Of a stretch of DNA of 64,000 nt, positions 8,248-64,000 are shown in pieces; position 1 is the stretch's first letter; each line of letters opens with the position of its first letter. The DNA lies in the NCBI RefSeq assembly GCF_008843145.1, contig NZ_CP030265.1, positions 5,573,001 to 5,637,000 of the forward strand. Direction: 5' to 3'. The stretch comes from Skermanella pratensis (lineage in GTDB: Bacteria > Pseudomonadota > Alphaproteobacteria > Azospirillales > Azospirillaceae). The position numbers and the translations under genes were made by a program. The notes beneath the pieces were generated by a model that saw nothing but the letters and a program-made list of their open reading frames with translations, had not been told where the DNA came from and did no database searches.

Positions 8248-11200
8248 ATGGGCGTGGCGGGCATTTTTCCGATCATCGGCATTGGTGCATCGGCCGGCGG
8301 AGTCGAAGCGCTGACGTCGCTGTTCAAGCGCATGCCGCCGCAATCGGCCGCGGCCTTCGTCATCGTCACCCATCTGGCTGCCCATCGGGAAAGTCTGCTG
8401 CCGGAAATCCTGGCCCGCTGCACGGAAATGCCGGTCGCGACCGCCCAGGACGGCCAACGCGTCGAATGCGGCCACGTCTACCTGAATCCCCCCGACGCCG
8501 TCCTCACGGTCCGCGATCGATGCTTGTCGTTGACCGCCCATGACGGTGAACGCAATCTGATCGACATTTTCCTGGCATCGCTCGGCAGGAACGCGCGGGA
8601 CCGGGCGATCGGCGTCATCCTCTCGGGGACCGGCAGCGACGGGGCGATCGGCTTGAAGACCGTGCGCGAGTCCGGCGGCTTCACCCTCGCGCAGGCTTCC
8701 GACGCCACGGGGCCGGGCTATCACGGCATGCCGGACGCGGCCATCGCCACCGGCTTCGTCGACTGCGTGCTGCCGATCGAGGCGCTGGCCGACCGGCTGA
8801 CCGGCTATGTCGGCGCGTTCGGCGACGCGGATCCCCGGATGGACGGGATTTCGGACAAGGATGATCCGGCAAGGCTGGAAGGCGCGAAGAACGCCATCTA
8901 CGACACCCTGCGCCGCCGGGTCGGACATGACTTCAGCCATTACAAGGACAAGACTTTCCTGCGGCGCGTGGAGCGGCGCATGAAGGTGCGGCAGAGCGCC
9001 GGCCTGGAGGCCTATGTCGAATTGATCAAGGAGGACAGCGAAGAGGCCGTGGCGCTGTTCCGCGACCTCCTGATCGGCGTCACCAACTTCTTCCGCGACC
9101 CGGAATCCTTCGACCGCCTGGCCGAACTGGTCGTTCGACGCCTCCTCAAGGACAAGGGCCGGAACGAGACCGTCCGGATCTGGGTTCCGGGCTGCGCCAC
9201 CGGGGAAGAGGTCTATTCCATCGCGATGTTGCTGCGCGAACGGCTGGATGCCTGCCAGATCCCGCCAAACATACAGATCTTCGCCACCGACGTGCAGGAG
9301 AGCGCCATCGCCGTCGCCCGCGCGGGGCGTTATCCAGCAAGCCTTCTGGAAGCCATGTCGCCGGAGCGGCTGGCACGGTTCTTCACCCGCGCAGGCGACA
9401 GCTACACCGTCAACGCGGAAATCCGCGAGCTTTGCCTGTTCTCGCCTCACAGCATCGTCCGCGATCCGCCGTTCTCGCGGATCGACCTCGTCTCCTGCCG
9501 CAATCTGCTGATCTACTTCGACGCCGATCTGCAAAGGCGGGTCATTCCCCTGTTCCATTACGCGATCCGCCCCGGCGGATTCCTGTTTCTGGGCAATGCG
9601 GAGAATCTCAGCCAGCATACCGACCTGTTCTTTCCCCTGGATAAGAAATCCCGGATCTTCCAGCGGCGGGACAATGCCGGCCAATTCCCGGCCCTGCCGT
9701 TGTTCGGGCAGCCCCGGAACAGCTTCCGATCGCCCCGCGCCGGTCCGGGTGCGGTGGGCTCCGACCCTCCGGACGCCGTTCGCCTTCTGGAGCGGCGTGT
9801 GCTGGACCGGTACGCTCCTGCGCATGTGCTGGTCAACCGGGAGGGGGAGATCCTCCATTTCTCGGCAGGAACGGGCAAGTATTTCGAAGCGCCCGTCGGG
9901 GCGCCCAACCGGAACCTCCTTGCCCTGGCCAACAGCGGACTGAAACTGTTCCTTCGCTCGGCCCTTGCCGAGGTGCGCGAGACCGGATGTCCCGCGCTGC
10001 GGGAGAACATCTCGCTCGACGTGCACGGCGGCGTGCTGATGCTCGACATCGCGGTCGAGCCGCTGCCGGACGACGGCGGCGATGGCGCCTGCATGATCGT
10101 CTTCATCGATAACGGCCCCATCCAGAACCGCGGGCAGGCCATGACGGCCGGCCAGGACTTCAGGGCGGACCGCCGCACCGAGCTGCTGCGGCTGGAACAG
10201 GACCTGGTGAAGACCCAAGAGCTCCTTCAGATCTCGGTCGAGGAATACGAGACTTCGGCGGAGGAGCTGAGAGCAAGCAACGAGGAGTTGCTTTCACTGA
10301 ACGAAGAATTGCAGTCATCTAACGAGGAGTTGGAGACATCCAAGGAAGAGCTCCAGTCGGTGAACGAGGAAATGAGCACGGTCAACATAGAGCTGGCCAC
10401 GAAGATAGACGAGCTTCACCGGGCAAATGCCGACCTGGGGAACCTGCTGGACATCACCCGCCTTGCCACCATATTTCTCGATCAAGACCTCGTCATCCGG
10501 AACTTCACCCCGGCGACCACGGCCATCTTCAAGCTGGTTGCGAACGACCGGGGCCGGGCGCTGACCGACATCGTCAGCCTGATCGATTACGACCGGCTGG
10601 CCGAGGATGTCCGCACCGTGGTGGAGACATCCAGCCCGATCGAGAGAAACGTCTGCCGGCGCGACGGGCGAGTCCATTACCTTCTGCGGATCGTTCCCTA
10701 CCAGACGGTCTACGACAAGGTCGTCGGGGCGATCCTCACCTTCCTCGACGTGAGCGACATGGTCCGTGCCGAGGAGCACCAGCGCCTGCTGGTGGCGGAG
10801 TTGAACCACCGCGTAAAGAACATCCTGGCAGTCGTGGGATCGATGGCGACTCAGATGGCCCGGAGCTGCCGCACGGTCGAGGAGTTCGCCGAAGGGTTCA
10901 TCGGGCGGATCGACGGCCTGGCCAAGACCCATGACATCCTCTCCGCCAAGGAATGGGCCAACATCGATCTGGCCGAACTTCTGGCAGCCGAACTGGACGT
11001 TTTCCTTGTGGACGCCGACCGCAAGAGCCATGACGGCCCAGCCGTTTCCCTGGCCCCGAGAGTGGCGACCACGCTGGGAATCGTCATCCATGAACTGGCG
11101 ACCAACGCGACCAAATACGGGGCCTTCGCCAATACCGCCGGACGGCTGGAGGTGCGGTGGGGGATCGAGACCCTGGACTCCGGGCAATGCCTCGTGCTGC

Positions 11201-11397
11201 ATTGGCGCGAACGGGACGGTCCACCGGTAAGCCAGCCCAGGCATACCGGCCTGGGCACGGAGTTGATCCACCGCGGACTCAATTTCGAGCTGGATGGAAG
11301 CGCCGACATCGAGTACCGGCCCGAAGGCGTCGTCGCCACCCTGACCATCCCCATGACCGGTCACGAGATCTACGAGACAAGGGATGCGCCTCAATGA
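8248..11397 (+). CDS. CheB-CheR-PAS-HWE histidine kinase hybrid
   Basis: This is a 1049-residue multidomain sensor. CheB methylesterase (about 1-190) keeps its triad: Ser15 in GASAGG, His42 in VTHL, Asp131 in SGTGSDG. CheR methyltransferase (about 210-480) has RRVERRMKVR and the SAM loop WVPGCATGEEVYS, and ends in the family motif FLFLGNAENLS. A PAS-like region (about 510-620) leads to a long Glu/Leu-rich coiled coil (about 640-730), another PAS (about 735-850) and an HWE/HisKA_2-type kinase: ELNHRVKNILAVV with the phospho-His, then HELATNATKYGA as N-box. There are no membrane segments, so it is cytoplasmic. It overlaps the next gene (a response regulator) by 4 nt (ATGA). Similar proteins act in light or stress signalling rather than chemotaxis; the signal here is unknown. 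Confidence 0.93.
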   Translation: MGVAGIFPIIGIGASAGGVEALTSLFKRMPPQSAAAFVIVTHLAAHRESLLPEILARCTEMPVATAQDGQRVECGHVYLNPPDAVLTVRDRCLSLTAHDGERNLIDIFLASLGRNARDRAIGVILSGTGSDGAIGLKTVRESGGFTLAQASDATGPGYHGMPDAAIATGFVDCVLPIEALADRLTGYVGAFGDADPRMDGISDKDDPARLEGAKNAIYDTLRRRVGHDFSHYKDKTFLRRVERRMKVRQSAGLEAYVELIKEDSEEAVALFRDLLIGVTNFFRDPESFDRLAELVVRRLLKDKGRNETVRIWVPGCATGEEVYSIAMLLRERLDACQIPPNIQIFATDVQESAIAVARAGRYPASLLEAMSPERLARFFTRAGDSYTVNAEIRELCLFSPHSIVRDPPFSRIDLVSCRNLLIYFDADLQRRVIPLFHYAIRPGGFLFLGNAENLSQHTDLFFPLDKKSRIFQRRDNAGQFPALPLFGQPRNSFRSPRAGPGAVGSDPPDAVRLLERRVLDRYAPAHVLVNREGEILHFSAGTGKYFEAPVGAPNRNLLALANSGLKLFLRSALAEVRETGCPALRENISLDVHGGVLMLDIAVEPLPDDGGDGACMIVFIDNGPIQNRGQAMTAGQDFRADRRTELLRLEQDLVKTQELLQISVEEYETSAEELRASNEELLSLNEELQSSNEELETSKEELQSVNEEMSTVNIELATKIDELHRANADLGNLLDITRLATIFLDQDLVIRNFTPATTAIFKLVANDRGRALTDIVSLIDYDRLAEDVRTVVETSSPIERNVCRRDGRVHYLLRIVPYQTVYDKVVGAILTFLDVSDMVRAEEHQRLLVAELNHRVKNILAVVGSMATQMARSCRTVEEFAEGFIGRIDGLAKTHDILSAKEWANIDLAELLAAELDVFLVDADRKSHDGPAVSLAPRVATTLGIVIHELATNATKYGAFANTAGRLEVRWGIETLDSGQCLVLHWRERDGPPVSQPRHTGLGTELIHRGLNFELDGSADIEYRPEGVVATLTIPMTGHEIYETRDAPQ

Positions 11398-22049: not shown

Positions 22050-22275
22050 GAGCCGCCCTCATACTTCGCAAGCTTTCCGGTGCGGTACGCCGCAGCCACG
22101 GCGGCCGGCACCCGGTCTGCATCGATGAAAACACGCACCAGAAAAGATCGGCCGGAGTCTGCTTCGATGATAAACCGTTGTGCGACCACTCGTCCGATCT
22201 GGACAATCCACGCCTTGCCATCCCGGCCAAGGCGTGATCGCTGAACGCGACGTCCCGCAGCCCGTCCCCCGTCAC
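22046..22275 (-). pseudogene. DUF4258 gene with a frameshift
   Basis: The N-terminal part is in the frame starting at GTG 22275 (VAFSDHALAGMARRGLSRS, the typical DUF4258 opening). The C-terminal part is in the neighbouring frame (VVAQRFIIEADSGR ... VFIDADRVPAAV, VAAAYRTGKLAKYEGG, the typical ending). The shift falls near 22185-22195, where the sequence appears to lack one base compared with an unbroken reading. Neither frame alone gives a full protein. The stop overlaps the DUF2283 start by 4 nt. A sequencing error would restore the gene; otherwise it is inactive. The upstream end overlaps the last codons of the cytochrome gene on the same strand. Confidence 0.75.
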
Positions 22276-25200
22276 TTCCCACCCTGCGCCGCCGCAGCCG
22301 TCACCGGCACCGCGCCGCTGTCCACCATCTTCAGCTTCCAGTCCTGCGCCTCGGTGCCGTCCAGGTTCAGGTGGCCGGCCAGGAACAGCAGGCGGTCGGT
22401 GTCGGCGCCCTTGGCGGTGCAGAAGCGGTCCTGGAGATAGTAGGGCGGCGTCGCCTGATAGTAGAGCGTCGCCTTGACCGACGCCGCGGTTCCCTTCAGG
22501 TCGGCCAGCGGCACGGCATAGACCAGCGTGTCGCCGCCGCCGTCGCGGTAGTCGGGATCGTCGCCCACCGCCGTGGGGGCCACGTCCTCGGCAAGGTCGG
22601 GGCCGGCGCCCAGCGCCTTGGCGATGGCGAGACGCTGGTCGAGCCCCAGGAAGCCGTGGGGCAGGATGCGGTTGTCCTTCACGTCGGCGCAGATCGACAG
22701 GAAGCTGGTCGTGAAATCGCCGGTCGGCTTCACGTCATGGCCGCAGACGGGGGCCTGGCCCGCCGGCAGGTTGGCGGGCGGCGCCGTCACCAGCTCCTGG
22801 TAGATCTGCGCCTGGTCCTGGCGGCTGACCACCTGGTAATGCGGCTGGTGCGGCAGGCTGCCGGCGTTGGCCCGGCCGGAGCAGTCGTCGTTCCACCACA
22901 GCTCGCCGGCGACCGGCTTGCCCGCCTCGTCCACGATGACGCCGGCGCCGTTGGTCCGGCCCGAGGCCCACAGCACGTTGCCGTTGGCGTCGAGCACGTC
23001 GAACTCGATGAAGGCGCGGCGGAAACCCACGCCGGACGGCAGCTTGTGCCCGGTCCTGCTGGTGACCGCGACGGTCGCCCGCAGGTTGCCGCCGTCCGTC
23101 TCCACCCCCGTCACCGCGATCGCGGCGGTGCCGCCGGAAGCCTGGTCGAGCATCGCCTGCTCGGTCCGGAGCAGCGGATCGACGCCCTTGGACACCAGCA
23201 TCGGGTCCTGGGTGCGGATGCCCAGGATGTCGGGGAACTGCTGGGCCATCTTGGTGAAGAAGACGTTCAGCCCGACCAGCGTGTGCTGGGCGAAGCCGTC
23301 GCGCACGGGCAGGTCGATGTCCTCGGGTCCCAGGTTGTTCTCGGCCTGGGGGAAGTTGGAATATTCCTGGATGCTCGCGATCTTGCTGCGGTACGGCTTG
23401 CCGTTCTCGTCCTTGCTCGGCATGTGGCAGTCCTGGCAGCTCGCGGGCGTGGCACCCGGCCCGCCGGGCAGCTTGCCGTCCACGCCCTCGCCGGTGCGGT
23501 AGGCGCTGAAGGCCCATTCCGGATATGTCGTCTGCTCGTAGACGTGGGTCAGCACCTTGCCCTTGTCGAGCACCGGCAGATGGACCGTATGGCAGGTGCC
23601 GCAGGTCTCGGAACTGGTGATCGCGGCGTGGTACTCGGGCCGGTTGCCGAGCGCCGCTTCCATCGGCTTGACCTTGGGGTCCTTGAAGGGGCCGAAGATC
23701 GTGTCCGGCCGGCCGACCAGGAAGCTGCCGGTAAAGGTCCGGGCGAAGCCGGTATTGTCCGGGTTCAGGAAGGCCTGCCGCTCGGCGATGCAGGCGTTCT
23801 GCGGCGCGTCCTTGAACTGCGCCGTCGCCTCCGCCCCCAGCGCCATGCGGTGGCAGGCGGTGCAGGAGACGCCGTCGCGCGCCAGCGCGCCGTACGGCGC
23901 GTGCCCGGCTGTCGGGTTGCCGGCGGGGAACGGCACCGCGTCGGCGAAGGAGCGCAGGAAGTCCTGGCACTGCCCGGTCTCGGCGAACTTGTCCACCGTG
24001 AACTGGCGCTGGCCCAGGATGCCGTGGCAGCCCAGGCAGGTGTTCTCCACCAGGGCCGCGCTCTCGGGGTGGAAGGTCTGGGTCTCGCTGGCGAGCTGGG
24101 CGAAGAAGATCGGGTCGCGCCCGGCCAGCCCCATGGGCGAGGTCCACCACGTGGCATAAGGCGACAGGTTGAGCAGCTTGGCGCCGTGGGGGTTCGGCCT
24201 GGTCATGTCGAACTGCAGGCCGGTGCTGCCGGCGTCGTGGCAGCCCATGCACTGGTCGGAGGTGACGAACTCGCTGGCGGCGCCGGGGGGGCCGGCCTTG
24301 ACCCAGACGCTGTCATAGGTCTGGGACGGCATCTTCGACACCGTCTCCCAGGTCGGCTTGGGCAGACCGGCGATCTTGAGGCCGCTGGCGATGTCGGTGT
24401 CGTAGCCGTATTGCGGCTGGCCCAGCCGCGCCGCGTCGTCGGTCGGCAGGCTGACCAGCCTGTGGTGGATCTCCGGCGCCGGGGCCTCGAAGAAATGCTG
24501 GCTGAGGAAGACCAGCGGCTCGCCCGGCTGGCCGAGCATGTTCTTCAGGCTGACGAAGGTATGATCGGCCTTGGCCGAGGCGTGGCAGTTCAGGCAGTAC
24601 TGGCCGAAGCCCATGTTGGCCAGCGGGTTGGTCGGCCCGGGCGGCCAGTCCGGCGCCCAGCCGCTCCAGCCGAACCAGCCCCAGAACCAGCCGTCGTGGG
24701 ACGCCTTTGCGTCGCGCACCATGATCGCGGCGCCGCTGGTCGGCAGCAGGTTGACCGGATCGACGCCGTCGCAGGCGGCGGCCGGCGCCGGGAACATCTC
24801 CTTGACCATGATCGCGCCGTCGGGGACCGGCGCCGGGTCCGCCGGGGCGGCGGCCTCGTCGGACGGGCGGTTGACCTTCAGCCACTCCACCATCTCGGGC
24901 GAGTACCAGATCACCACCGGCGCGTGGGTGCCCGCGTAGGTCCCGACCCATTTGCCGTCCTGGAGGCTGGCGGTATAAGGGCCGGTGTCGCGCACCCGCT
25001 TGTCCCGCACCCACCCGGCGGCCGTGTCCCGGTGGCAGAAGTTGCGCAGATAGTCCCCCAGCTTCGTCTCGTACTGGTCGAGCGGCAAGGCGCCCGGCTT
25101 GCGCACCGCCTCGGCCAGGGAGGCGCACAGGGCGCCGTCGGTCGGCACCAGCGGAGTAGGCCGGGCCGCCGTGCAGGCGGGCGCCGCGAGGGCCGGCCCC

Positions 25201-25292
25201 GCCGCGAGCAGGCCGCACAGGACCAGCGCGGGGGTGCCGGACAGGCGCGAGAGGACGGGAGCCAGGAGACGGGACAGGAAGGCTTGGGACAT
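22272..25292 (-). CDS. Six-heme cytochrome c with an N-terminal P460-like domain
   Basis: This is a 1006-residue exported electron-transfer or redox protein. The signal peptide is about 1-37 (cleavage near ALA-AP). The first domain (about 70-255) resembles cytochrome P460: VPDGAIMVKEMF, then GAAIMVRDAKASHDGWFWGW, and closing GFGQYCLNCHASAKADHTFV. Five more heme motifs follow: CMGCH (348), CLGCH (419), CTACH (477), CGTCH (564) and CQDCH (619), giving six CxxCH in all. The C-terminal third (about 690-1000) has no heme site and begins with a beta-rich part (LRATVAVTSRTGHKLPSGVG, with RRAFIEFDVLDANG) seen in multiheme oxidoreductases of the cytochrome c554 group. It is divergent from ccmDEFGHI, the machinery needed to attach its hemes. 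The substrate is unknown; hydroxylamine, nitrite or organic donors are all possible. Confidence 0.85.
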   Translation of the reverse strand: MSQAFLSRLLAPVLSRLSGTPALVLCGLLAAGPALAAPACTAARPTPLVPTDGALCASLAEAVRKPGALPLDQYETKLGDYLRNFCHRDTAAGWVRDKRVRDTGPYTASLQDGKWVGTYAGTHAPVVIWYSPEMVEWLKVNRPSDEAAAPADPAPVPDGAIMVKEMFPAPAAACDGVDPVNLLPTSGAAIMVRDAKASHDGWFWGWFGWSGWAPDWPPGPTNPLANMGFGQYCLNCHASAKADHTFVSLKNMLGQPGEPLVFLSQHFFEAPAPEIHHRLVSLPTDDAARLGQPQYGYDTDIASGLKIAGLPKPTWETVSKMPSQTYDSVWVKAGPPGAASEFVTSDQCMGCHDAGSTGLQFDMTRPNPHGAKLLNLSPYATWWTSPMGLAGRDPIFFAQLASETQTFHPESAALVENTCLGCHGILGQRQFTVDKFAETGQCQDFLRSFADAVPFPAGNPTAGHAPYGALARDGVSCTACHRMALGAEATAQFKDAPQNACIAERQAFLNPDNTGFARTFTGSFLVGRPDTIFGPFKDPKVKPMEAALGNRPEYHAAITSSETCGTCHTVHLPVLDKGKVLTHVYEQTTYPEWAFSAYRTGEGVDGKLPGGPGATPASCQDCHMPSKDENGKPYRSKIASIQEYSNFPQAENNLGPEDIDLPVRDGFAQHTLVGLNVFFTKMAQQFPDILGIRTQDPMLVSKGVDPLLRTEQAMLDQASGGTAAIAVTGVETDGGNLRATVAVTSRTGHKLPSGVGFRRAFIEFDVLDANGNVLWASGRTNGAGVIVDEAGKPVAGELWWNDDCSGRANAGSLPHQPHYQVVSRQDQAQIYQELVTAPPANLPAGQAPVCGHDVKPTGDFTTSFLSICADVKDNRILPHGFLGLDQRLAIAKALGAGPDLAEDVAPTAVGDDPDYRDGGGDTLVYAVPLADLKGTAASVKATLYYQATPPYYLQDRFCTAKGADTDRLLFLAGHLNLDGTEAQDWKLKMVDSGAVPVTAAAAQGGK

Positions 25293-54520: not shown

Positions 54521-56632
54521 ATGTTCAAAGTCTACAGAAAAGAAATCGATTGGGGCGGACGCAAGCTGGTGCTGGAGACCGGCAAGGTCGCCCGCCAGGC
54601 CGATGGCGCCGTGATGGCGACGTACGGCGAGACGACCGTGCTCTGCACCGTCGTCGCGGCCAAGGCGGCCAAGCCCGGTGTCGATTTCTTTCCGCTGACC
54701 GTCAACTACCAGGAAAAGGCGTTCGCCGCCGGCAAGATCCCGGGCGGCTTCTTCAAGCGTGAAGGCCGTCCCTCCGAGAAGGAGACGCTGGTCAGCCGCC
54801 TGATCGACCGGCCGATCCGCCCGCTGTTCGCCGACGGCTTCCGCAACGAGACGCAGGTCATCTGCACCGTGCTGAGCCACGACATGGAGAACGATCCCGA
54901 CATCGTGGCCATGGTCGGCACCTCCGCCGCCCTGACCATCTCGGGCATTCCCTTCCTGGGCCCGATCGGCGCCGCCCGCGTCAGCTACCGGAACGGCGAA
55001 TACACGCTGAACCCGCTGGTCGACGACGAGGAAGGCGACCTGGACCTGGTGGTCGCGGGTACGCGCGACGGCGTGCTGATGGTCGAATCCGAGGCCAACG
55101 AACTGTCCGAGGACGTCATGCTCGGGGCCGTCATGTTCGGCCACCGCGGCTTCCAGCCGGTCATCGACGCCATCATCGAGCTGGCCGAGCAGTGCGCCAA
55201 GGAGCCCTGGGACATGCCCGCGGCCCCCTATGACGCCGCCGCCGTCAAGGCCCGCGTCAAGGAGACCGTCGGCGAGGACATCAAGGCGGCATATTCCGAG
55301 ATCCGCAAGCAGGACCGCCAGAACAAGCTGGGCGCCGCCAAGCTGAAGGCGCTGGAGGCCCTGACCTCGGACGAGATCCCCGCCGAGGCGATCGCCGGCA
55401 CCTTCAAGGACGTCGAGAGCGACGTGCTGCGCGGCACCGTCATCGACACCGGCCGCCGGATCGACGGCCGCTCGACCACCGACATCCGCCAGATCGTGGC
55501 CGAGGTCGGCGTGCTGCCCCGCGCCCACGGCTCCGCCCTGTTCACCCGCGGCGAGACCCAGGCCCTTGTGGTCGCGACGCTCGGCACCAGCCAGGACGAG
55601 CAGATCATCGACGCCCTGGAAGGCGAGTACCGCGAGAGCTTCATGCTCCACTACAACTTCCCGCCCTACTCGGTCGGCGAGGCGGGCCGCGTCGGCTCCC
55701 CCGGCCGGCGCGAGATCGGGCACGGCAAGCTGGCGTGGCGCGCGGTCCGTCCGCTGCTCCCGACCAAGGAGCAGTTCCCCTACACCATGCGCATCGTGTC
55801 GGAGATCACCGAGTCCAACGGCTCCTCGTCGATGGCGACCGTCTGCGGCGCCTCGCTGGCCCTGATGGACTCCGGCGCTCCCCTGCCCCGTCCGGTGGCC
55901 GGCATCGCCATGGGCCTGATCAAGGAGGACCGCGGCTTCGCCGTGCTGTCCGACATCCTGGGCGACGAGGACCACCTGGGCGACATGGACTTCAAGGTGG
56001 CGGGCACCGAGAAGGGCGTCACCGCGCTCCAGATGGACATCAAGATCACCTCGATCACCGAGGAGATCATGCGCGTCGCCCTCGACCAGGCGCGCGGCGG
56101 CCGTCTGCACATCCTGGGCGAGATGGCCAAGGCGATCGGCGGCGCCCGCGATGCGGTCAACCAGAACGCCCCGCGCATCACCGTGATCAACATTCCCAAG
56201 GAGAAGATTCGCGACGTGATCGGCTCCGGCGGCAAGGTGATCCGCGAGATCGTGGAGCAGACCGGCGCCAAGATCGACATCGAGGACGACGGCACGGTCA
56301 AGGTCGCGGCGGTGGACGGCAAGGCCAGCCAAGCCGCCATCGACTGGATCCGCGGCATCGTGGCCGAGCCGGAGCTGGGCGTGGTCTACACCGGCAAGGT
56401 CGTGAAGGTGGTCGATTTCGGCGCCTTCGTGAACTTCCTGGGCTCGCGCGACGGCCTGGTCCACATCTCCGAGCTGAAGAACGAGCGCGTCGGCAAGGTC
56501 GGCGACGTGGTCAAGCAGGGCGACGAGGTGAAGGTCAAGGTCCTGGGCTTCGACGACCGCGGCAAGGTCAAGCTGTCCATGAAGATGGTCGACCAGGCCA
56601 CCGGCGAAGACCTGAGCAAGAGGGCCGAGTAA
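54521..56632 (+). CDS. pnp: Pnp, polyribonucleotide nucleotidyltransferase
   Basis: The 703-residue enzyme degrades RNA 3' to 5' using phosphate and is part of the degradosome. Two RNase PH domains (about 10-220 and 325-545), a helical linker, then KH (about 555-615, [20 protein letters not shown]) and S1 (about 620-690, [20 protein letters not shown]). The active-site region [14 protein letters not shown] and [20 protein letters not shown] is intact. ATG 54521 has GGAAGGAAG upstream. The length matches the family. Long structured leader upstream; a GC hairpin follows. Confidence 0.97.
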
Positions 56633-56643
56633 CCCGCGGGAAC

Positions 56644-56669
56644 GGCGCCGCCCCGGTCCGGGCGGCGCC
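56644..56669 (+). terminator. Hairpin after pnp, no T tract
   Basis: A perfect 10-bp stem GGCGCCGCCC (56644-56653) / GGGCGGCGCC (56660-56669) with a 6-nt loop lies 12 nt after the pnp stop. Without a T run it more likely protects the 3' end, or works with Rho. Confidence 0.5.
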
Positions 56670-56808
56670 GGCCCCGCGTTGGTCGCATTCGGAACGATGG
56701 CCGGCGAACCTTGATTGATCTGCAACGATCCGGGCCTGGCGCTGGCAAGGCCGATGCCCGGACCGGACGCTCGGCGACGGGGTGGAGGGTCTTGCCACGG
56801 ATGGCCCC

Positions 56809-57294
56809 CTACACCCTCATCATGAAGTAGCGCCCCGGCCGGACCGTCTCCGGCAGGCGCAGCGGCTCCCATTGGGGCATGCCCAGGTCCTGGTCGCTGA
56901 CCACGACGCCGCCGCGTGCCATCAGCTTGTGCAGGCGCGGCGCCAGGAAAGCCGCCAGTTCGGCGTTGGCTCCGGGATCGCCGGAGCCGATATCCACATG
57001 GGCCAGGGCCGCGGGCGCTTCGATCACGGCGCCTGCCGACTCCAGCGTCTCGAACAGGTCGCCCAGCAGCAGGCACTCGGCCGGCGGGATGCAGTCGGGA
57101 TGGGCGGCGACCTGCCGCTCGAACACGAAGATCGTGCGATCCGGCAGCAGCGAGCGCAGATGGTCATAGGTGCGGCCGTTGCCCAGGCCGAACTCCAGCA
57201 CCGGGCCGGGGATGTTGCGGACCAGGTCCGCGGCGGCGTTGAGGCAGTCGCGCTGGGCGCTGACCCGTCTGATGAAACTGTCCAACCGGCTCAT
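56809..57294 (-). CDS. Class I SAM-dependent methyltransferase-like protein
   Basis: This 161-residue protein has a Rossmann-like SAM fold: GPVLEFGLGNGRTYDHLRSL (motif I with GxGxG spacing), TIFVFERQVAAHPD (acidic end of strand 2), ALAHVDIGSGDPGANAELAA and a late strand GGVVVSDQDLG. It is short for a full methyltransferase (usually 200+), lacking an obvious target-recognition part. The C-terminal part LPETVRPGRYFMMRV is characteristic but not one I can assign. It is last in a three-gene minus-strand group with the cNMP-binding gene (21-nt gap) and the aberrant ABC gene. Substrate unknown. Confidence 0.75.
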   Translation of the reverse strand: MSRLDSFIRRVSAQRDCLNAAADLVRNIPGPVLEFGLGNGRTYDHLRSLLPDRTIFVFERQVAAHPDCIPPAECLLLGDLFETLESAGAVIEAPAALAHVDIGSGDPGANAELAAFLAPRLHKLMARGGVVVSDQDLGMPQWEPLRLPETVRPGRYFMMRV

Positions 57295-57315
57295 GAACCG
57301 CCTTCTTTGGATACG

Positions 57316-57780
57316 TCATGTCTGGTGCGAGGCACCGTGTGCGACGGCTTCGCGCAGTTGCCGGGTCGTATTCTCCAGGCGCTGCGCCAGCACCCTCATG
57401 ATCTCCACCGCCATCTGCGGAAACTCGGTGACCATGCGGAAGAACAGGTCCTTCGAAATGCACAGCGTGGTCATGTCGGTGACGGCGACCACGCTGGCGG
57501 TACGCGGCACGTCGCACAGGATCGCGATCTCGCCGATGAAATCGTTGCGGCCGACCTTGGCGACCGTCAACGGCCCGTTCGGCGTATCGACCGTTACGTC
57601 CGCCTCGCCGTCCACGATGATGAACGCGCTGTTGCCCATTTCGTTCTGGGTGAAAAGCATGTCGCCCGCGTGGAAGGCGACGCGCTCGCTGGTGAAGGCC
57701 AGCAGCTTCAGCTTGCTGATCTCCACGTTGGCGAACATGGGGATCCTGCGCAGCAGTTCGACTTCTTCGGCAAGGCTCAC
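57316..57780 (-). CDS. Cyclic-nucleotide-binding (cNMP) domain protein
   Basis: This 154-residue protein contains one CRP-type cNMP-binding domain and no DNA-binding or kinase part. RIPMFANVEISKLKLLAFTS opens it, then FHAGDMLFTQNEMGNSAFII, VDGEADV, and the phosphate-binding-cassette region VGRNDFIGEIAILCDVPRTA. The PBC glutamate is present (GEIAIL) and the Arg of R-T-A is kept, so cNMP binding is plausible. A C-terminal helix (MVTEFPQMAVEIMRVLAQRL) with a short tail follows. Such stand-alone domains regulate partners in trans; the adjacent ABC gene (44-nt gap) is the natural candidate. Confidence 0.88.
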   Translation of the reverse strand: MSLAEEVELLRRIPMFANVEISKLKLLAFTSERVAFHAGDMLFTQNEMGNSAFIIVDGEADVTVDTPNGPLTVAKVGRNDFIGEIAILCDVPRTASVVAVTDMTTLCISKDLFFRMVTEFPQMAVEIMRVLAQRLENTTRQLREAVAHGASHQT

Positions 57781-57824
57781 GACACGCTACTCCCGTTTCC
57801 GGCTGCTCATCATCCAACTGTTCA

Positions 57825-60464
57825 TCATTCGGCCGCCAGCAACTCGTGCATGACGGTGCCCGGCTTGTCCAGGTCCTGATAGCTCCCGTGCTCGGCGATC
57901 TGGCCTCCCCGGAGCACAAGGGTCTGGTCGAACCGCCGGGCGATGCTGGGCCTGTGCAGGACCCAGAGCACGCCGCGGCCCTGGCGCTCCTCCAGGATCG
58001 CGTCATGGATGCGCGTCTGGCTGGCGCCGTCCAGTCCGGCGGTCGCCTCGTTGATCACCAGCAAATCGGGGTTCTTCAGGATGGCGCGGGCCAGCGCCAC
58101 CTTCTGCCGCTGCACCCGGGACAGCCGCGACCCCGAGACGCCGACATAATGGTCCAGCCCGATCTCCTGGATGGTCTCGCGCAGGTGCAATTCCTCGATC
58201 ACCTGGGCCACCAGCCGGCCGACCTTGCCGCCAACCTGGGCCTGGCCGTACGCGACCTTTCCGAACAGGATGTTGTCCTGGATCGTCGAGGCCGAGTTGT
58301 AGCTGTCCTCGACGAAGAACTCGATGCTCTCGCGCAAGCCGTCCGGCAGGTCGCGGGCGAAGACGTGGCGCGCCTCCAGCAGGCGCCGCTCCATGCCGTC
58401 GTCGATCAGGCCCAGTCGGTGGCGGGCCGGGATCAGCTTGAAGGGCAGCGCCATCAGCCGGCGCTTCTCCTCCGGCTTCAGGCTGTCGACGCCCTCCTTG
58501 TCCGCCTTCGCCACCATCGGCTGGAAGTCGGGCAGCTCCTCCGAGCTGATGAAGCTGAACTGCTCGAAGAACTGGTGGCCCGGCGGCAGGTCGGCGAACA
58601 GTTCGATCATCGTGCGGGCGACCTGGACGCCCATGTTCAGGAAGTCGCGCGTCAGCCCGACCTTCTCCAGCACGCCCAGCACATAGGTGTTCTCCGCCAT
58701 GCTGTCGATCGCGAAGACCGGCCCGACCGGGCTGCCGAACAGAAGGTTCTCGGCCACCGTCGCGTTGTTGTTGAACCGGTCGGGATGCCAGATCTCGACC
58801 AGCGACCGCATCGCCGGCTGGGCCAGCTCGGCCCTCAGCGCCGTCCGCGCCTCCAGGATGCGCGCGACGACGTCCCCGTCTCCACCCTTCGCCAATGTGC
58901 CGTTCAGGCCCAGCCGGTAGACGTCGTCCGCCAGGTCGACCATGTCCAGCACGGCGAGCGTGCGCCGGCGCAGGCTTTCGGGACCGTCGCAGCCGGCGGC
59001 GACATAGTCGATCCAGTCCGCATCCAGCGGAAAATCGGTGTTGCCGGCGGCCTGTGACTCGGAAGCCCGGCGGCGGTGCTCGGCGGCCGCCCTCTCGTCC
59101 CCTTCATGCACCGCCAGCGGGCGGTGCCGCAGCCCGTAATAGAGGTTGTCGCGCAGGCTGGAGGTGAACATGTAGCTGTTCTGCCCGACATAGGCGATGC
59201 GCCGCCCGGTGACGGCCTCCGGCAGATGCGCCATATCCTGCTCGCCGATCCGGATGCGGCCGGCCGTCGGCATCAGCAGCCGGGCGGCCAGCATGGCGAA
59301 CTCGTCCCGCCCGGCGCCGCCGACGATCGCCGTGTGCCCGTCGAGCGGCAGCGTGCAGGACAGGCCGTCCAGGATCTTCGGCCCGTTGTCCTCGCCCAGC
59401 GAGACGTTGGTGAAGACCATCGGCCCGGTCAGCCTCGTGTCCGGACCGGCGTCGGTGGCGATCAGGCCGGCGGCCATCAGTTCGGGCACGTCGAACTGCT
59501 CGATCACCTGCTCGTACTTGATCCGGATGTCTTCCTTCATCTGGTAATAGTCCAGCAGCTCCTTCCACGGTCCCGCCAGGTCCTTGTAGGCGGCCAGCAC
59601 GGCGACCAGCGAGCCGAAGCTGATGCTCCCCTGGATCACCAGATACCCGCCGATCGAGTAGAAGAAGAAAGGCGTCAGCTGGTTGATGAAATTGTTGAGA
59701 AATTTTATGAAGAACTTGCGCTGGAAGATTTCGAACCGGATATCGTAGACGTCGCCGTAGCGATGCGAGATGTCCGCCAGATGCCAGGCCGAGGTGTCGT
59801 GGGCATGGATCTCCTGCACGCCGGAGACAGATTCGCCGATCCGGTCGGAGATCTGGCGCATCGCCCGCACCCGCTGCTTGCCCAGTTGGTTGACCTTGCG
59901 CTGCAACCGGGGGATCAGCCAGCCCTGGAGCGGATAAAGCGAGATCGCCGCCGCTCCCAGGATGGGGTCCTGCATGAAGATGAAGACCAGGTAGACCAGC
60001 AGCGTGCCGCCCTGGAACACCGGCAATGCTATCGAGTCGCCGATGAAGCCGCCCAGCGGCTCGACCTCGGCGGTGATCATCGGGATGATTTCGCCCTGGC
60101 TGACCTTGCGGAACCGGGGCAGAGGGAATCGCAGCACCCTGAGATACAGCTCGTAGCGGAGCCGCCGCAGCATGCGCTCGCCCAGCCGCCCCTTCAGGGT
60201 GTTGATCCGGAACTTGAAGGCGCCGTTGATCAGGACCAGCGTCAGGAACATTCCTGACAGCAGCATCAGGTACGGCACCTGTTCGAACTGGAAACCAAGG
60301 AATTCCTTGGGGAAATTCTGCCCGCCGATGGCGTCGTTGACGATCTGCTTCGGCAGTTCCAATGAATAATAAAGGAACGGGAACGAGGACAGAGTGAGCA
60401 GGAGAATGACCACCTGCTGCCGCGTACTATAGCGCAGCACGAAGCGAAAGATGCTCTTTTCCAT
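57825..60464 (-). CDS. Aberrant ABC transporter: membrane domain plus expanded, degenerate ATPase domain
   Basis: The protein has 879 residues. The N-terminal half (about 1-330) is an ABC exporter membrane domain with about six hydrophobic segments. The ATPase half starts normally, but Walker A is VGGAGRDEFA (381-390), lacking the usual Lys-Ser/Thr. The Q-loop (VGQNSYMF) is at 426-433, while the signature (SGSRLSRVQRQ) comes only at 777-787, about 345 residues later instead of ~60. Walker B is LLVINEATAGLD (801-812; Asn for the Asp, catalytic Glu kept), H-loop LHRPS (His 837). The insert has three similar DN-x-x-x-G blocks at about 435, 568 and 726, suggesting repeated copies of one sub-domain. 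ATP hydrolysis at this site is doubtful. No substrate can be named; it may be a half transporter or a regulatory protein. Grouped with cNMP-binding and methyltransferase genes. Confidence 0.82.
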   Translation of the reverse strand: MEKSIFRFVLRYSTRQQVVILLLTLSSFPFLYYSLELPKQIVNDAIGGQNFPKEFLGFQFEQVPYLMLLSGMFLTLVLINGAFKFRINTLKGRLGERMLRRLRYELYLRVLRFPLPRFRKVSQGEIIPMITAEVEPLGGFIGDSIALPVFQGGTLLVYLVFIFMQDPILGAAAISLYPLQGWLIPRLQRKVNQLGKQRVRAMRQISDRIGESVSGVQEIHAHDTSAWHLADISHRYGDVYDIRFEIFQRKFFIKFLNNFINQLTPFFFYSIGGYLVIQGSISFGSLVAVLAAYKDLAGPWKELLDYYQMKEDIRIKYEQVIEQFDVPELMAAGLIATDAGPDTRLTGPMVFTNVSLGEDNGPKILDGLSCTLPLDGHTAIVGGAGRDEFAMLAARLLMPTAGRIRIGEQDMAHLPEAVTGRRIAYVGQNSYMFTSSLRDNLYYGLRHRPLAVHEGDERAAAEHRRRASESQAAGNTDFPLDADWIDYVAAGCDGPESLRRRTLAVLDMVDLADDVYRLGLNGTLAKGGDGDVVARILEARTALRAELAQPAMRSLVEIWHPDRFNNNATVAENLLFGSPVGPVFAIDSMAENTYVLGVLEKVGLTRDFLNMGVQVARTMIELFADLPPGHQFFEQFSFISSEELPDFQPMVAKADKEGVDSLKPEEKRRLMALPFKLIPARHRLGLIDDGMERRLLEARHVFARDLPDGLRESIEFFVEDSYNSASTIQDNILFGKVAYGQAQVGGKVGRLVAQVIEELHLRETIQEIGLDHYVGVSGSRLSRVQRQKVALARAILKNPDLLVINEATAGLDGASQTRIHDAILEERQGRGVLWVLHRPSIARRFDQTLVLRGGQIAEHGSYQDLDKPGTVMHELLAAE

Positions 60465-60673
60465 AGCACTGATGTCCGAAAAAGCGTTCCTGCGCTGGTC
60501 CGCCCGGGCAGGAAAAAAGTGGGACCGAGAGTACCTGATGGTGTGGCACCCGGCAATTCACATGGTCGATACCCAGCTATTCTGCTAGAGACAGACGATG
60601 GCATTGACCCCTATGGGTTCCAGGCTTCACAGGTTGGCCGAACTGCCGGAGTGGACACCGTGAGCAGACGCAC

Positions 60674-61939
60674 ATGAGCAACCGCATCGGGGCAGGCCGG
60701 GAAGACATCCGGGAACAGGTGCGCGAACAGACGCGCGAGCACAGCCGCGTGCTGATCTACAGCCACGACACCTTCGGCCTCGGCCATCTGCGCCGCTGCC
60801 GGACCATCGCCCATGCGCTGGTCGAGCAGCACAAGGACATGTCCGTCCTGATCCTGTCGGGGTCGCCGATCATCGGCAGCTTCGATTTCCGGAGCCGGGT
60901 CGATTTCGTCCGGATTCCCGGGGTGATCAAGCTGCGCAACGGCGAGTACACCTCGCTGAACCTGCACATCGACATCGAAGAGACGCTCGCCATGCGGGCA
61001 TCGATCATCCGCCACACCGCGGAGATCTTCGATCCCGACCTGTTCATCGTCGACAAGGAGCCGCTGGGCCTGCGGGGCGAGGTGCTGGAGACCCTCCAGG
61101 TGCTCAAGGCCCGCGGCACGCCTCTGGTGCTGGGCCTGCGCGACGTGATGGACGAGCCGTCGGCCCTGGGGCCGGAATGGGAGCGCAAGAAGGTGATGCC
61201 GGCCCTGGACAAGCTCTACGACGAGTTGTGGGTCTACGGCCTGCCGCAGATCTGCGACCCGCTCGACGGGGTCCGGGTGCCGCCCTCGGTGCGCCGGAAG
61301 ATGGTCTATACCGGATACCTGGAACGCAGCGCCCCCGTCCACCCGGCACTTCCGGACATGCCGGACGAGCCGTTCATCCTGGTCACGCCCGGCGGCGGCG
61401 GCGACGGCGAGAACTTGGTCGACTGGGTCCTGCGCGCCTACGAGCACGATCCCAGGCTGCCCCACCGCGCCTTGATCGTGCTCGGCCCCTTCATGCAGCG
61501 CGAACTTCAGAACGAGTTCGCGGCGCGGGCGGCGGCATTGCCCAAGGTCGAGACGCTGACCTTCGAGGCCCAGCTCGAAAGCCTGATGGCGAAGGCGATC
61601 GGCGTCGTCGCGATGGGCGGCTACAACACCTTCTGCGAGATCCTGTCGTTCGACAAGCGGGCGCTGATCGTGCCGCGCATGGTTCCCCGGCTGGAACAGT
61701 ACATCCGCGCCAGCCGGGCGCAGGAGCTTGGCCTGGTCAGCATGCTGCCCGACGACAGCGTGCGCGACCCGGGCGCCATGGCGACGGCGCTGCGCCAGCT
61801 GCCGCAACAGCAGGTTCCTTCCGACGTGATCGTCCCCGGCCTGCTCGACGGGCTGGAGAACGTCAACCGCCTGGCCGCCCGCCATCTGGCGGAACCCCGG
61901 CGCCCCGCGCGCCGCGCCACCCTGCGCCGCAGGGCCTGA
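60674..61939 (+). CDS. MurG-like glycosyltransferase family protein
   Basis: The protein has 421 residues from ATG 60674. The opening VLIYSHDTFGLGHLRRCRTI with the GLGH loop is the nucleotide-sugar or acceptor loop of GT-B enzymes such as MurG and the family 28 group. The C-terminal half has EPFILVTPGGGGDGENLVDW (hinge with Gly-rich turn) and KAIGVVAMGGYNTFCEILSF, the donor-binding GGYNT motif of this group. No membrane segments; peripheral cytoplasmic enzyme likely. It is first of a run of glycosyltransferases, divergent from the aberrant ABC gene. Function is probably in polysaccharide or glycan synthesis; exact sugar unknown. Confidence 0.85.
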   Translation: MSNRIGAGREDIREQVREQTREHSRVLIYSHDTFGLGHLRRCRTIAHALVEQHKDMSVLILSGSPIIGSFDFRSRVDFVRIPGVIKLRNGEYTSLNLHIDIEETLAMRASIIRHTAEIFDPDLFIVDKEPLGLRGEVLETLQVLKARGTPLVLGLRDVMDEPSALGPEWERKKVMPALDKLYDELWVYGLPQICDPLDGVRVPPSVRRKMVYTGYLERSAPVHPALPDMPDEPFILVTPGGGGDGENLVDWVLRAYEHDPRLPHRALIVLGPFMQRELQNEFAARAAALPKVETLTFEAQLESLMAKAIGVVAMGGYNTFCEILSFDKRALIVPRMVPRLEQYIRASRAQELGLVSMLPDDSVRDPGAMATALRQLPQQQVPSDVIVPGLLDGLENVNRLAARHLAEPRRPARRATLRRRA

Positions 61940-61950
61940 CCCATAGGCTG

Positions 61951-63186
61951 TTGATCTTGACCGTCTGCGTCGTCGTCAAAGGCTGGCCCCGGCTGTCCGA
62001 AACCTTCATCGCCCAGGAACTGGTGGGGCTGGAGCAGCGCGGGGTCGACCTCGCCCTGTTCTCCCTGCGCCACCCGACCGACAAGACCACCCACGCGCTG
62101 CACCACCAGCTCCGGGCGCCGGTGACCTACCTGCCGGAATATCTCCACGACGAGCCGGCCCGGCTCGCCCGCGCGCTGGGGGCCGCCCGCGCGCTGCCGG
62201 GCTGGAGACGGGCGCGTGCGGTCTGGCTCCGCGACCTCGCGCGCGACCGCACCCGGAACCGGGTCCGCCGATTCGGGCAGGCGGCGGTGCTGGCGGCCGA
62301 GCTGCCGCCGGGCACCAGCAGGATCTACGCCCATTTCCTGCACACCCCCGCCAGCGTCGCCCGCTACGCCGCCCTGATGCGGGGCCTGCCCTGGAGCTTT
62401 TCCGCCCACGCCAAGGACATCTGGACGATCCCCGACTGGGAGAAGCGGGAAAAGCTGGCCGAGGCGCGCTGGGGCGTCACCTGCACCCGCCTCGGCCATG
62501 CCCATCTGGCGGAGCTGGCGCCCGTGCCGGACCGGGTCCGGCTGCTCTACCACGGGCTGGAGTTCGACCGCTTCCCGGCCGAGGTGCCGGCGCGGCCTCC
62601 CCGGGACGGCAGCGACCCGGCCGACCCGCTGGTCCTGCTCTCGGTCGGCCGCGCGGTGGAGAAGAAGGGGTTCGACGTGGCGCTGGAAGCCCTTGCCAGG
62701 CTTCCCGCCGGGCTGCACTGGCGCTGGGTCCATGTCGGCGGCGGCACCGGGCTGAAGGCCCTGAAGGCGGAGGCCGAACGGCTGGGCCTCGCCGGCCGGA
62801 TCTCCTGGGAGGGCGCCCGGTCCCAGGACGTGGTGATCCGGCACTATGCCGAGGCCGACCTGTTCTTCCTGCCCAGCCGGCTGGCGCGAGACGGCGACCG
62901 CGACGGCCTGCCCAACGTGCTGATGGAGGCCCAGGTCATGGGGCTGCCGGTGGTCGCGACCCGGATGGCCGCCATCCCCGAGCTGGTGGTCGAGGGCGAG
63001 ACCGGCATCCTGGTCGATCCAGGCGATGCCGCCGGCCTTGCCGAAGCCCTCGCCGCCCTCGGCCGCGATCCCGAAGCGCGCCGCCGTCTGGCGGCGGCCG
63101 GCGGCAGCCGGGTCCGCGGGCGGTTCAGCGCCGGGGCCGGGCTCGACCATCTGGCCGGGCTACTGACCTCCGGCGGTCCGGAGTAA
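61951..63186 (+). CDS. GT4-type glycosyltransferase
   Basis: The enzyme has 411 residues from TTG 61951 (VCVVVKGWPRLSETFIAQEL, the typical start of this sub-group, in which SETFI is conserved). The frame is open upstream inside the previous gene but not protein-like. C-terminal GT4 domain: LLSVGRAVEKKGFDVALEAL, LHWRWVHVGGG, and the donor-binding E-x7-E region FFLPSRLARDGDRDGLPNVL followed by MEAQVMGLPVVATRMAAIPE. The layout resembles exopolysaccharide glycosyltransferases such as those of colanic acid type (WcaL/AmsK). It follows the preceding gene by 11 nt. Confidence 0.9.
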   Translation: MILTVCVVVKGWPRLSETFIAQELVGLEQRGVDLALFSLRHPTDKTTHALHHQLRAPVTYLPEYLHDEPARLARALGAARALPGWRRARAVWLRDLARDRTRNRVRRFGQAAVLAAELPPGTSRIYAHFLHTPASVARYAALMRGLPWSFSAHAKDIWTIPDWEKREKLAEARWGVTCTRLGHAHLAELAPVPDRVRLLYHGLEFDRFPAEVPARPPRDGSDPADPLVLLSVGRAVEKKGFDVALEALARLPAGLHWRWVHVGGGTGLKALKAEAERLGLAGRISWEGARSQDVVIRHYAEADLFFLPSRLARDGDRDGLPNVLMEAQVMGLPVVATRMAAIPELVVEGETGILVDPGDAAGLAEALAALGRDPEARRRLAAAGGSRVRGRFSAGAGLDHLAGLLTSGGPE

Positions 63187-63201: not shown

Positions 63202-64000
63202 ATGAGGATCGCCTTCTACGCTCCCCTCAAGGCGCCGACGCACCCCACGCCCTCGGGCGACCGCCGCATGGCGCGGCTGCTGATGGCGGCGCTCGGCCAT
63301 GCCGGGCACCGGGTCGATCTGGCCTGCGGCTTCCGGAGCTGGGACGACGGCAAGCGGCCCGGCCGGCACCGGCGCCTCGCCGACCTCGGGGGTCGCTTGG
63401 CGGACCGGCTGGCCGCGCGGCTGCGGCGCGACCCGCCCGACCTGTGGTTCACCTATCACCTGTACCACAAGGCGCCGGACTGGCTGGGACCCGCCGTCAG
63501 CGCCGCGCTGGGCATCCCCTATGTGGTCGCCGAGGCCTCCTTCGCGCCCAAGCAGGCCGGCGGCCCCTTCGCGCTCGGCCATGAAGCGGCGGCGGCAGCC
63601 ATCGCCCGCGCCGACGCCGTGATCTCCCTCAACTCGGCCGACGCGGAGTGCCTGTATCCCCTGCTCCGGTCGCCCGGCCGGCTGACGCTGCTGCGCCCCT
63701 TCGTCGAGCCGCCGGCCCCGCGCGACCGCGCCGCGGACCGCGCCGGACTCGCCCGCTCGCTGGGGCTGGACCCGGAGGTGCCCTGGCTGCTGGCCGTCGG
63801 CATGATGCGGGGCGGTGACAAGCAGCGCTCGTTCCGCGTCCTGGCGCGCGCCCTGGAACGGCTGGGCGGCCACGACTGGCGGCTGCTGGCGGTGGGCGAC
63901 GGGCCGCGCCGGGCTTGCGTCGAGGAAAGCTTCGGCCGCGTCGATCCCGGCCGCCTCCGCTTCCTGGGCGCCCTGCCGCCCGACCGGCTGGCCGCCTGCT
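63202..64000 (+). CDS. Glycosyltransferase, N-terminal part (cut by window end)
   Basis: ATG 63202, 15 nt after the previous stop; 266 codons are visible with no stop before the window ends. MRIAFYAPLKAPTHPTPSGD and RRMARLLMAALGHAGHRVDL are a GT-B N-terminal start with a Pro/Ser-rich loop; IPYVVAEASFAPKQAGGPFA and AAAIARADAVISLNSADAEC are conserved middle parts. EVPWLLAVGMMRGGDKQRSF opens the C-terminal donor domain. Operon with the two preceding glycosyltransferases. Confidence 0.85.
   Translation, partial: MRIAFYAPLKAPTHPTPSGDRRMARLLMAALGHAGHRVDLACGFRSWDDGKRPGRHRRLADLGGRLADRLAARLRRDPPDLWFTYHLYHKAPDWLGPAVSAALGIPYVVAEASFAPKQAGGPFALGHEAAAAAIARADAVISLNSADAECLYPLLRSPGRLTLLRPFVEPPAPRDRAADRAGLARSLGLDPEVPWLLAVGMMRGGDKQRSFRVLARALERLGGHDWRLLAVGDGPRRACVEESFGRVDPGRLRFLGALPPDRLAAC

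Follow-up and report, generated by a model that had tools for sequence, protein, structure and literature searches.

Background

Type IV ATP-binding cassette (ABC) exporters, such as MsbA, PCAT1, TmrAB and P-glycoprotein, are among the described systems closest to the protein considered here, an 879-residue product encoded on the reverse strand of a 64,000-nucleotide stretch of the Skermanella pratensis genome (contig NZ_CP030265.1, positions 5,573,001 to 5,637,000; "the window" hereafter means this whole stretch). Like them, it belongs to the ABC_membrane family, gives fold matches to exporters and possesses a nucleotide-binding domain (NBD) with recognisable elements; unlike them, its ATP-site residues are eroded, the segment between the Q-loop and the signature is present three times, and the usual pattern of conservation is inverted. 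This triplication, the broken ATP site, an NBD under constraint, a linked cyclic-nucleotide-binding (CNB) protein with an intact binding site, and a setting of glycan-related genes are the observations described below.

Altered Walker and signature residues are also seen in exporters with a degenerate site, including TAP, the ABCC proteins, Pdr5 and TM287/288 (PMC7756269, in the available part of that review). There, however, one site is canonical, whereas the full set of catalytic residues is found in none of 99 members of the present family and a canonical partner was not found nearby. An exporter-type membrane domain that is energised by protons and needs no ATPase of its own has been described for SbmA/SLiPT (PMC13316013, in excerpt), and SbmA provides the precedent for drive without ATP. 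An ABC-exporter-type membrane domain without an ATPase is likewise found in NBD-less relatives of the window protein. In contrast to SbmA, the window protein has no Pfam match to SbmA_BacA (ABC_membrane is its only membrane family), its NBD is kept and enlarged, and proton coupling would be no more than a possibility.

The combination of an exporter fold with a CNB domain is shared with HetC and other CNB-containing exporters, and in HetC this domain was found to bind ppGpp, not cAMP (PMC10986499, as far as the excerpted text goes). HetC differs in that its CNB domain is N-terminal, that it also has a peptidase domain and that its ATPase is required; the present family has an eroded ATPase, and its CNB domain is encoded by a separate gene or sits at the C-terminus. 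In cyclic-nucleotide-gated channels a CNB domain is joined to a pore domain and gates it; here the CNB domain is encoded next to, or fused C-terminally with, an ABC-type membrane domain.

Another system to be compared is MsbA2 of Sinorhizobium meliloti, a pSymB-encoded ABC exporter beside glycosyltransferases that has been connected with an unknown polysaccharide and with symbiosis (PMC3687685, PMC12239276, both in part). A pSymB relative of the window protein also adjoins glycosyltransferases and had been taken as MsbA2, an identification ruled out by the coordinates and by comparison with the presumed msbA2 open reading frame (ORF; 941302-943101, 600 residues, placed from published coordinates). 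This ORF matches the window protein over a short NBD stretch only (32% over 138 residues), and has no CNB gene near it; in S. meliloti strain R14 a different gene represents the family. A search near SMb20478 in strain 1021, at a guessed position, gave no match to the family.

Results and discussion

An exporter-fold protein and its family

The ORF, which an earlier sequence-only reading of the window had delimited identically (57825-60464, reverse strand, 879 residues), encodes a protein whose sequence identifies it as having the ABC-exporter fold. Pfam places ABC_membrane (PF00664) at residues 64-291 (E 4.2e-18) and splits ABC_tran into two matches, of which the stronger covers 712-809, while from NCBIfam only general exporter models respond, far below their cut-offs (best score 181.7 vs a cut-off of 602). 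An AlphaFold2 monomer model built from 71 sequences has a mean predicted local distance difference test (pLDDT) of 86.2 and a predicted TM-score (pTM) of 0.82; within the insert that enlarges the NBD, ten-residue blocks have pLDDT values of 71-97, mostly near 90. Foldseek searches with this model retrieve ABC exporters, with half-transporter matches spanning the chain. The TM-scores by target are 0.63 (8vox_A) and 0.62 (5mkk_B), those by query length about 0.42, and the root-mean-square deviation is 13-15 because of the large insert and differing domain angles. A sequence search with only the insert found nothing among solved structures at E values up to 5, nor in a phage collection.

The family comparisons were made on 99 proteins, namely the query and 98 relatives, from which the query's second copy and eleven re-fetched duplicates had been removed and in which near-identical congeners were kept. 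They draw on a scan of genome contigs in which at least 591 stretches matched, 496 of them encoding a relative (the best 80 were kept), and on 21 full-length or near-full-length copies taken from the genomes of 59 relatives. We are dealing with a large proteobacterial family, for which no description was found in NCBIfam or in a literature search covering few subscription journals.

The ATP site across the family

Six catalytic residues were scored: the Walker A Lys, the Ser/Thr following it, the Q-loop Gln, the Walker B Asp, the catalytic Glu and the His. The window protein lacks the Walker A Lys (Arg in GGAGRDE), the next Ser/Thr (Asp) and the Walker B Asp (Asn, N805, beside a retained Glu); both the missing Lys and the Asp-to-Asn change had been pointed out by the sequence-only reading. 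None of the 99 proteins has the complete set of six, and eight have none of them. The Ser/Thr is found in 16/99, the Q-loop Gln in 30/99, the Walker B Asp in 12/99 and the His in 42/99, and a Gly occupies the third position of the signature in just 7/99. The A-loop position, residue 358, is Glu or Asp in 92/99 and aromatic in none, as against Tyr in all five aligned ordinary exporters. The motif GxxxxGK[ST] is present in 24/24 ordinary exporters from the same and related genomes, as judged by a pattern scan whose reading frames were chosen partly by that very motif. Certain divergent members score below the Pfam threshold for the NBD altogether (21.6 and 19 bits vs a cut-off of 25).

The sequence-only reading had stated that it would be refuted by homologues with an intact Walker A. 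In the family 56/99 proteins keep the Lys and 7/99 keep Lys and Ser/Thr together, so that loss of the Lys is not a family constant. The Lys changed state at least 16 times on a membrane-domain tree (98 rows, seven near-duplicates removed) made by a quick method, with 35 of 95 inner branches weak. The constant feature of the family is that the ATP site is broken somewhere. Judged from the sequences, erosion of the ATPase is very probably family-wide, and we consider this point well supported.

Three copies of a Q-loop/helical segment

The Q-loop and the signature are 352 residues apart in the window protein (428 to 780), a large gap that the sequence-only reading had noticed and put at about 345 residues. 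In the 24 ordinary exporters of the pattern scan this distance is 58-64 in 16 cases, the scan giving no value in six and nonsensical negative values in two. The three resembling blocks named by that reading lie exactly at 435-444, 568-577 and 726-735, and the segments trailing them at 509-520, 602-613 and 759-770. They belong to three units, A, B and C (Table 1), for which profiles were made from the 99-protein alignment (A, 418-532; B, 533-620; C, 690-778) and compared against 40 column-permuted controls each. The B and C profiles align over 77 columns with E 5.7e-18 and a score of 91.3 (permuted maximum 19.0). A and C match through the Asn block only (E 2.4e-5, score 31.5; permuted maximum 17.2), and A and B through the trailing helices only (E 1.6e-4, score 27.1; permuted maximum 17.2). 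The similarities ranked identically in an earlier test on 18 sequences, in which flanking control segments gave E 0.038 to 0.6.

Comparison with the Q-loop and post-Q-loop segment of the NBDs of 14 ordinary exporters links unit A to it most strongly (E 1.1e-8, score 55.6; permuted maximum 18.2), followed by unit C (E 6.2e-5, 31.9; 17.3) and, as the weakest link, unit B (E 0.0048, 22.8; 18.1), while the B-C linker has no match to the NBDs of these exporters (E 0.68, 9.3; 17.1). The Asn of each block is retained almost without exception (N440 in 98/99, N573 in 99/99, N731 in 99/99), and the invariant columns of B and C are in register (R540/R699, N573/N731, G577/G735). In the AlphaFold2 model the order of secondary-structure elements is common to all three units: 1) unit A has a strand at 423-426, a helix at 437-445 and helices at 495-508 and 512-520; 2) unit B has a helix at 530-547, a strand at 556-558, a helix at 570-575 and helices at 593-602 and 605-623; 3) unit C has a helix at 689-704, a strand at 714-716, a helix at 728-733 and helices at 744-758 and 762-769. 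On account of the profile matches and the invariant columns in register, B and C are identified, at the level of sequence, as duplicates of each other and both as copies of the Q-loop/helical segment, B being the most divergent. The resemblances that the sequence-only reading had seen by eye are thus true repeats, its proposal of an internal duplication yielding three such modules in one NBD is borne out by the unit profiles, and the structure prediction it had called for agrees with repeated sub-domains as far as secondary structure shows.

Constraint on the gene

The ORF is intact in 99/99 proteins, and purifying selection acts on the gene: dN/dS against three congeneric relatives is 0.062, 0.112 and 0.126 over the whole gene, and lowest, 0.03-0.06, in the membrane domain, which has many invariant polar and charged residues. 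The relative conservation of the two domains is inverted, as the transmembrane domain (TMD) is better kept than the NBD, the reverse of the situation in ordinary exporters. The NBD/TMD identity ratio in the family is 0.71 (0.40-1.06) over the 4734 of 4851 pairs with a TMD identity of 0.3-0.75, vs 1.55 (0.90-2.55) in 77 pairs of 14 ordinary exporters with a TMD identity above 0.2, the two ranges overlapping between 0.90 and 1.06.

A cyclic-nucleotide-binding partner

The gene that follows encodes a CNB protein of 154 residues. A CNB domain is adjacent in 82/99 loci, 79 of them by an automated check and three (L012, L101 and L125) with an overlapping long reading frame, and is fused at the C-terminus in 9/99, which brings the total to 91/99. 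Its phosphate-binding cassette retains the Gly in 91/91 sequences, the ligand-binding Arg in 91/91 and the Glu in 84/91. On the membrane-domain tree, the transitions between fused and separate CNB domains require at least two changes (one extra fused protein, L163, included). Among 72,556 plasmid records, 247 contain the insert (E up to 1e-10) and 245 the CNB partner (E up to 1e-15); the two are equally frequent in Rhizobium (144), Sinorhizobium (80), Ensifer (9) and Phyllobacterium (5); these are totals and genus counts, not record-by-record pairings, and many of the records are close strains. Gene order and fusions together make it highly probable that the exporter-fold protein and the CNB protein form a partnership, which is well supported.

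The nearest solved chains to the CNB partner are cGMP-dependent protein kinases, and the CNB domain of SthK matches it by sequence (E about 4e-9), although the membrane domain here is of the ABC type and not a K+-channel pore. Pfam recognises cNMP_binding alone in partners of 154 and 155 residues, with no helix-turn-helix or other DNA-binding domain; the window's genome contains 14 matches to cyclase domains. The partner from Rhizobium etli is one of those in which cNMP_binding is the sole Pfam domain. The partners at L161:9809-10273 and L160:9815-10282 are annotated as Crp/Fnr family or putative transcriptional regulators.

Glycan-related neighbours

Genes for glycan metabolism recur around the family. 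In the 99 loci, a GT28-like gene lies divergently upstream in 62 (same direction in five, absent in 22, out of reach in ten), and a Methyltransf_17 gene lies downstream in 45 (absent in 43, out of reach in 11). Further counts were taken from the 50 of 78 named loci that extend to at least 14 kb: a GT4 glycosyltransferase is present in 47/50 and a second GT4 query is matched in 45/50 (both queries can match each other's genes), a second GT28-like gene in 43/50, a histidine phosphatase in 40/50, a polysaccharide-deacetylase-like gene in 23/50, a YejE-like permease in 6/50 and a cyclase-like gene in 4/50. In an annotated Sulfitobacter locus, glycosyltransferases, a histidine phosphatase and a polysaccharide deacetylase precede the fused protein, and in Rhizobium etli the gene is preceded by two glycosyltransferases and followed by the CNB gene. 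A link of the family to glycan is probable from this setting.

Relatives without an NBD

Some relatives, of 419-453 residues and 42-46% identical to the membrane domain, have no ABC_tran match. They occur in relatives of Azospirillum and on plasmids beside copper-resistance genes, and the three that were included on the tree form a single branch. Their existence implies that the membrane domain can persist without an ATPase encoded in its own gene. Those at L158:5764-7068, L159:5770-7029 and L034:4267-5628 lie in copper-resistance islands with plastocyanin/azurin, multicopper oxidase and CusA-type efflux genes, on alphaproteobacterial plasmids and in one genome of the window's genus; some are annotated as "ABC transporter ATP-binding protein", and no ATP-binding domain was found in them. 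A free-standing membrane-domain relative of 313 residues, with about 30% identity, is seen at L037:5045-5986, a few genes away from ones that, judging by their first residues, are SufD- and SufS-like.

A tentative mechanism and its alternatives

The reading that we prefer, to which we give somewhat less than an even chance, is that a nucleotide-binding partner sets the state of this exporter-fold protein, a pseudo-ATPase, which handles a glycan or glycolipid. Transport, gating and substrate are what we infer, as follows. 1) The ancestor would have been an ATP-driven ABC half-transporter whose ATP site no longer acts as a motor. 2) The NBD, judging from the repeat profiles, was kept and enlarged by two extra Q-loop/helical copies. 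3) The 879-residue protein and the CNB protein of the next gene would constitute a functional unit, as suggested by gene order and fusions, and may bind each other physically. 4) The enlarged NBD would offer a docking and lever surface. 5) The CNB protein would bind a cyclic or related nucleotide and so set the membrane domain open or closed; this gating of the membrane domain by a nucleotide has, in our view, slightly less than an even chance. 6) The membrane domain would pass or flip a glycan or glycolipid from the neighbouring glycosyltransferases. 7) The passage could run down a gradient or be driven by an ion gradient as in SbmA. Of the interpretation offered by the sequence-only reading, the duplication and the idea of a regulated non-pump fit what was found, the latter agreeing with the linked CNB partner (adjacent or fused in 91/99, Arg in 91/91); the family members that keep the Walker A Lys go against it by one of its own refuting conditions. 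The copies may, as that reading supposed, be modules coupling to the membrane domain, and the protein perhaps a channel or a scaffold. The CNB partner, the glycan cluster, the fusions and the NBD-less relatives had no place in that reading.

Several observations weigh against our reading. The CNB gene is absent from reach in 7/99 loci even by profile search, though two of these, L031 and L032, are second copies, and the first copy in each of those genomes does have the partner; at one further locus without a CNB domain in reach, where the profile search was also empty, the contig ends. Glycan genes are missing or unrecognised at some loci, including the Tistrella locus and second copies. The AlphaFold2 model covers a single ABC chain, and its TMD stretches 161-174 and 284-296 are poorly predicted (pLDDT below 50). 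The window protein itself retains three of the six catalytic residues (Q428, E806 and H837), and two of the 99 proteins retain five. With the Lys kept in 56/99, Lys and Ser/Thr (GK[ST]) in 7/99 and the catalytic Glu in 64/99, ATP binding or slow hydrolysis may persist in some members.

These retained residues, together with the His of 42/99, would suit a flippase that continues to be driven by ATP through an unorthodox site, with the CNB partner acting as an add-on regulator as in HetC. Heterodimeric exporters such as Pdr5 do tolerate a heavily altered site (PMC7756269, available part), and HetC couples a CNB domain with a working ABC exporter (PMC10986499, excerpt). However, all six residues occur together in 0/99 and an A-loop aromatic in 0/99, the signature Gly survives in only 7/99, and in divergent members the NBD falls short of the Pfam threshold (21.6 and 19 bits vs 25). 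The degenerate cases in the part of the review at hand have a second, canonical site, whereas here the Walker motifs and the signature are altered within one half-transporter, so that a homodimer would have two altered sites; we regard an ATP-driven flippase as unlikely. The second site might instead be supplied by a canonical ABC half-transporter encoded elsewhere, with the window protein as a regulatory half resembling SUR or one half of a degenerate-site heterodimer, and there are 12 other ABC_membrane proteins in the same genome to choose from. Yet no canonical exporter half was seen at the loci of four annotated relatives or among the Pfam-scanned neighbours, and, with signature and Walker motifs both altered, the protein would spoil both composite sites of a heterodimer, which makes such a pairing quite improbable.

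The lost ATP site, the intact CNB site and the glycan neighbours would also suit a membrane scaffold or sensor for glycan enzymes that transports nothing and whose CNB partner relays a second messenger to the glycosyltransferases. The membrane domain, however, is the best conserved part and has many invariant polar and charged residues, suggesting more than anchoring, and we hold this option to be improbable. That the gene is merely decaying, as the lost catalytic motifs might suggest, is practically untenable: the frame is open in 99/99, the repeat Asn residues are invariant or nearly so (98, 99 and 99 of 99), and dN/dS values of 0.062-0.126 refute it.

If the pseudo-ATPase reading is true, the family would present a natural series from a primary pump to a ligand-controlled membrane protein, comprising members with most of the ATP site, members with little of it, members with a fused CNB domain and members with no NBD. 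The family would then parallel CFTR and SbmA. It would also make it possible to test directly how the Q-loop/helical module acts once freed from ATP hydrolysis, and would supply a regulated exit step for a widespread alphaproteobacterial glycan cluster, including that of the symbionts Rhizobium and Sinorhizobium. A bolder version, which we consider rather doubtful, is that an exporter family gave up ATP and became nucleotide-gated, with a three-module pseudo-ATPase as lever, a CNB protein (often a separate gene, fused at least twice) replacing ATP as the opening and closing ligand, passage of a glycan or glycolipid, and the NBD-less cousins of the copper islands one step further along. The automatic names are in need of correction, namely "ABC transporter ATP-binding protein" for proteins without an NBD and "Crp/Fnr family transcriptional regulator" for proteins without a DNA-binding domain.

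Distribution and features of the locus

In a sample of 398 genomes from the phylum, the insert was present in 31, the window's own and 30 others of the same class. Named carriers include Azospirillum, Inquilinus, Thalassobaculum, Nisaea, Tistrella, Sneathiella, Reyranella and Pelagibius, to which may be added metagenome-assembled genomes labelled Beta- and Gammaproteobacteria, and plasmid-borne copies in Rhizobium, Sinorhizobium and others, mostly with 34-39% identity. The features of the window locus are collected in Table 1. For the GT4 gene within the ORF at 61177..63186, the probable start is near 61940. Scans for promoters and terminators across 56500-60800 returned no signal exceeding that of shuffled sequence.

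Table 1. Features of the locus, in window coordinates
Feature	Position	Strand	Basis
Methyltransf_17 S-adenosylmethionine (SAM) methyltransferase, 161 aa, 21 bases after CNB gene	56809..57294	-	Pfam E 3.3e-56
CNB partner, 154 aa, 44 bases after ABC gene	57316..57780	-	Pfam cNMP_binding E 9.8e-20
CNB phosphate-binding cassette, residues 83-96, GEIAILCDVPRTAS	57493..57534	-	91-sequence comparison
Pseudo-ABC exporter protein, 879 aa	57825..60464	-	ORF; Pfam ABC_membrane 64-291 and split ABC_tran; dN/dS
H-loop VLHRP, residues 835-839, His 837 kept	57948..57962	-	alignment
Walker B LLVINEATAGLD, residues 801-812, Asp to Asn (N805), Glu kept (E806)	58029..58064	-	alignment
Signature RLSRVQRQK, residues 780-788, LSGGQ degraded (LSRVQ)	58101..58127	-	alignment
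Unit C, residues 690-770: LEAR helix, strand, block STIQDNILFG 726-735, helices, then signature	58155..58397	-	profiles, model
B-C linker, residues 614-689	58398..58625	-	without match to ordinary exporters
Unit B, residues 533-613: LEAR helix, strand, block ATVAENLLFG 568-577, helices	58626..58868	-	profiles, model
Unit A, residues 418-532: strand, Q-loop Gln 428, block SSLRDNLYYG 435-444, two helices	58869..59213	-	profiles, model
Walker A region GGAGRDE, residues 382-388, Lys to Arg, Ser/Thr to Asp	59301..59321	-	alignment
A-loop position, residues 358-359, Glu-Asp; Tyr at 358 in five ordinary exporters	59388..59393	-	alignment
TMD, residues 1-325, most conserved part	59490..60464	-	Pfam, conservation, model
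Divergent glycosyltransferase, GT28-C / MJ1255 kind	60674..61939	+	Pfam E 1.8e-5; NCBIfam MJ1255 7.9e-9, below cut-off
ORF with GT4 glycosyltransferase C-terminally	61177..63186	+	Glycos_transf_1 E 1.6e-31 at residues 481-642
Second GT4-like glycosyltransferase, runs off window	63202..63999	+	Glyco_transf_4 E 1.3e-5, 25.7 bits, below cut-off 28.5

An oligopeptide ABC importer of the Opp/Yej type adjoins the family member at six loci (L122, L124, L108, L160, L161 and L162), in beta- and gammaproteobacterial and rhizobial settings as well as beside a fused Azospirillum copy. Elsewhere in the window, a reading frame of 1006 residues (22272-25292, reverse strand) has a weak match to Cytochrome_P460 only, at residues 153-245, and positions 8248-11397 of the forward strand encode a CheB-CheR-PAS-HWE histidine kinase fusion of 1049 residues.

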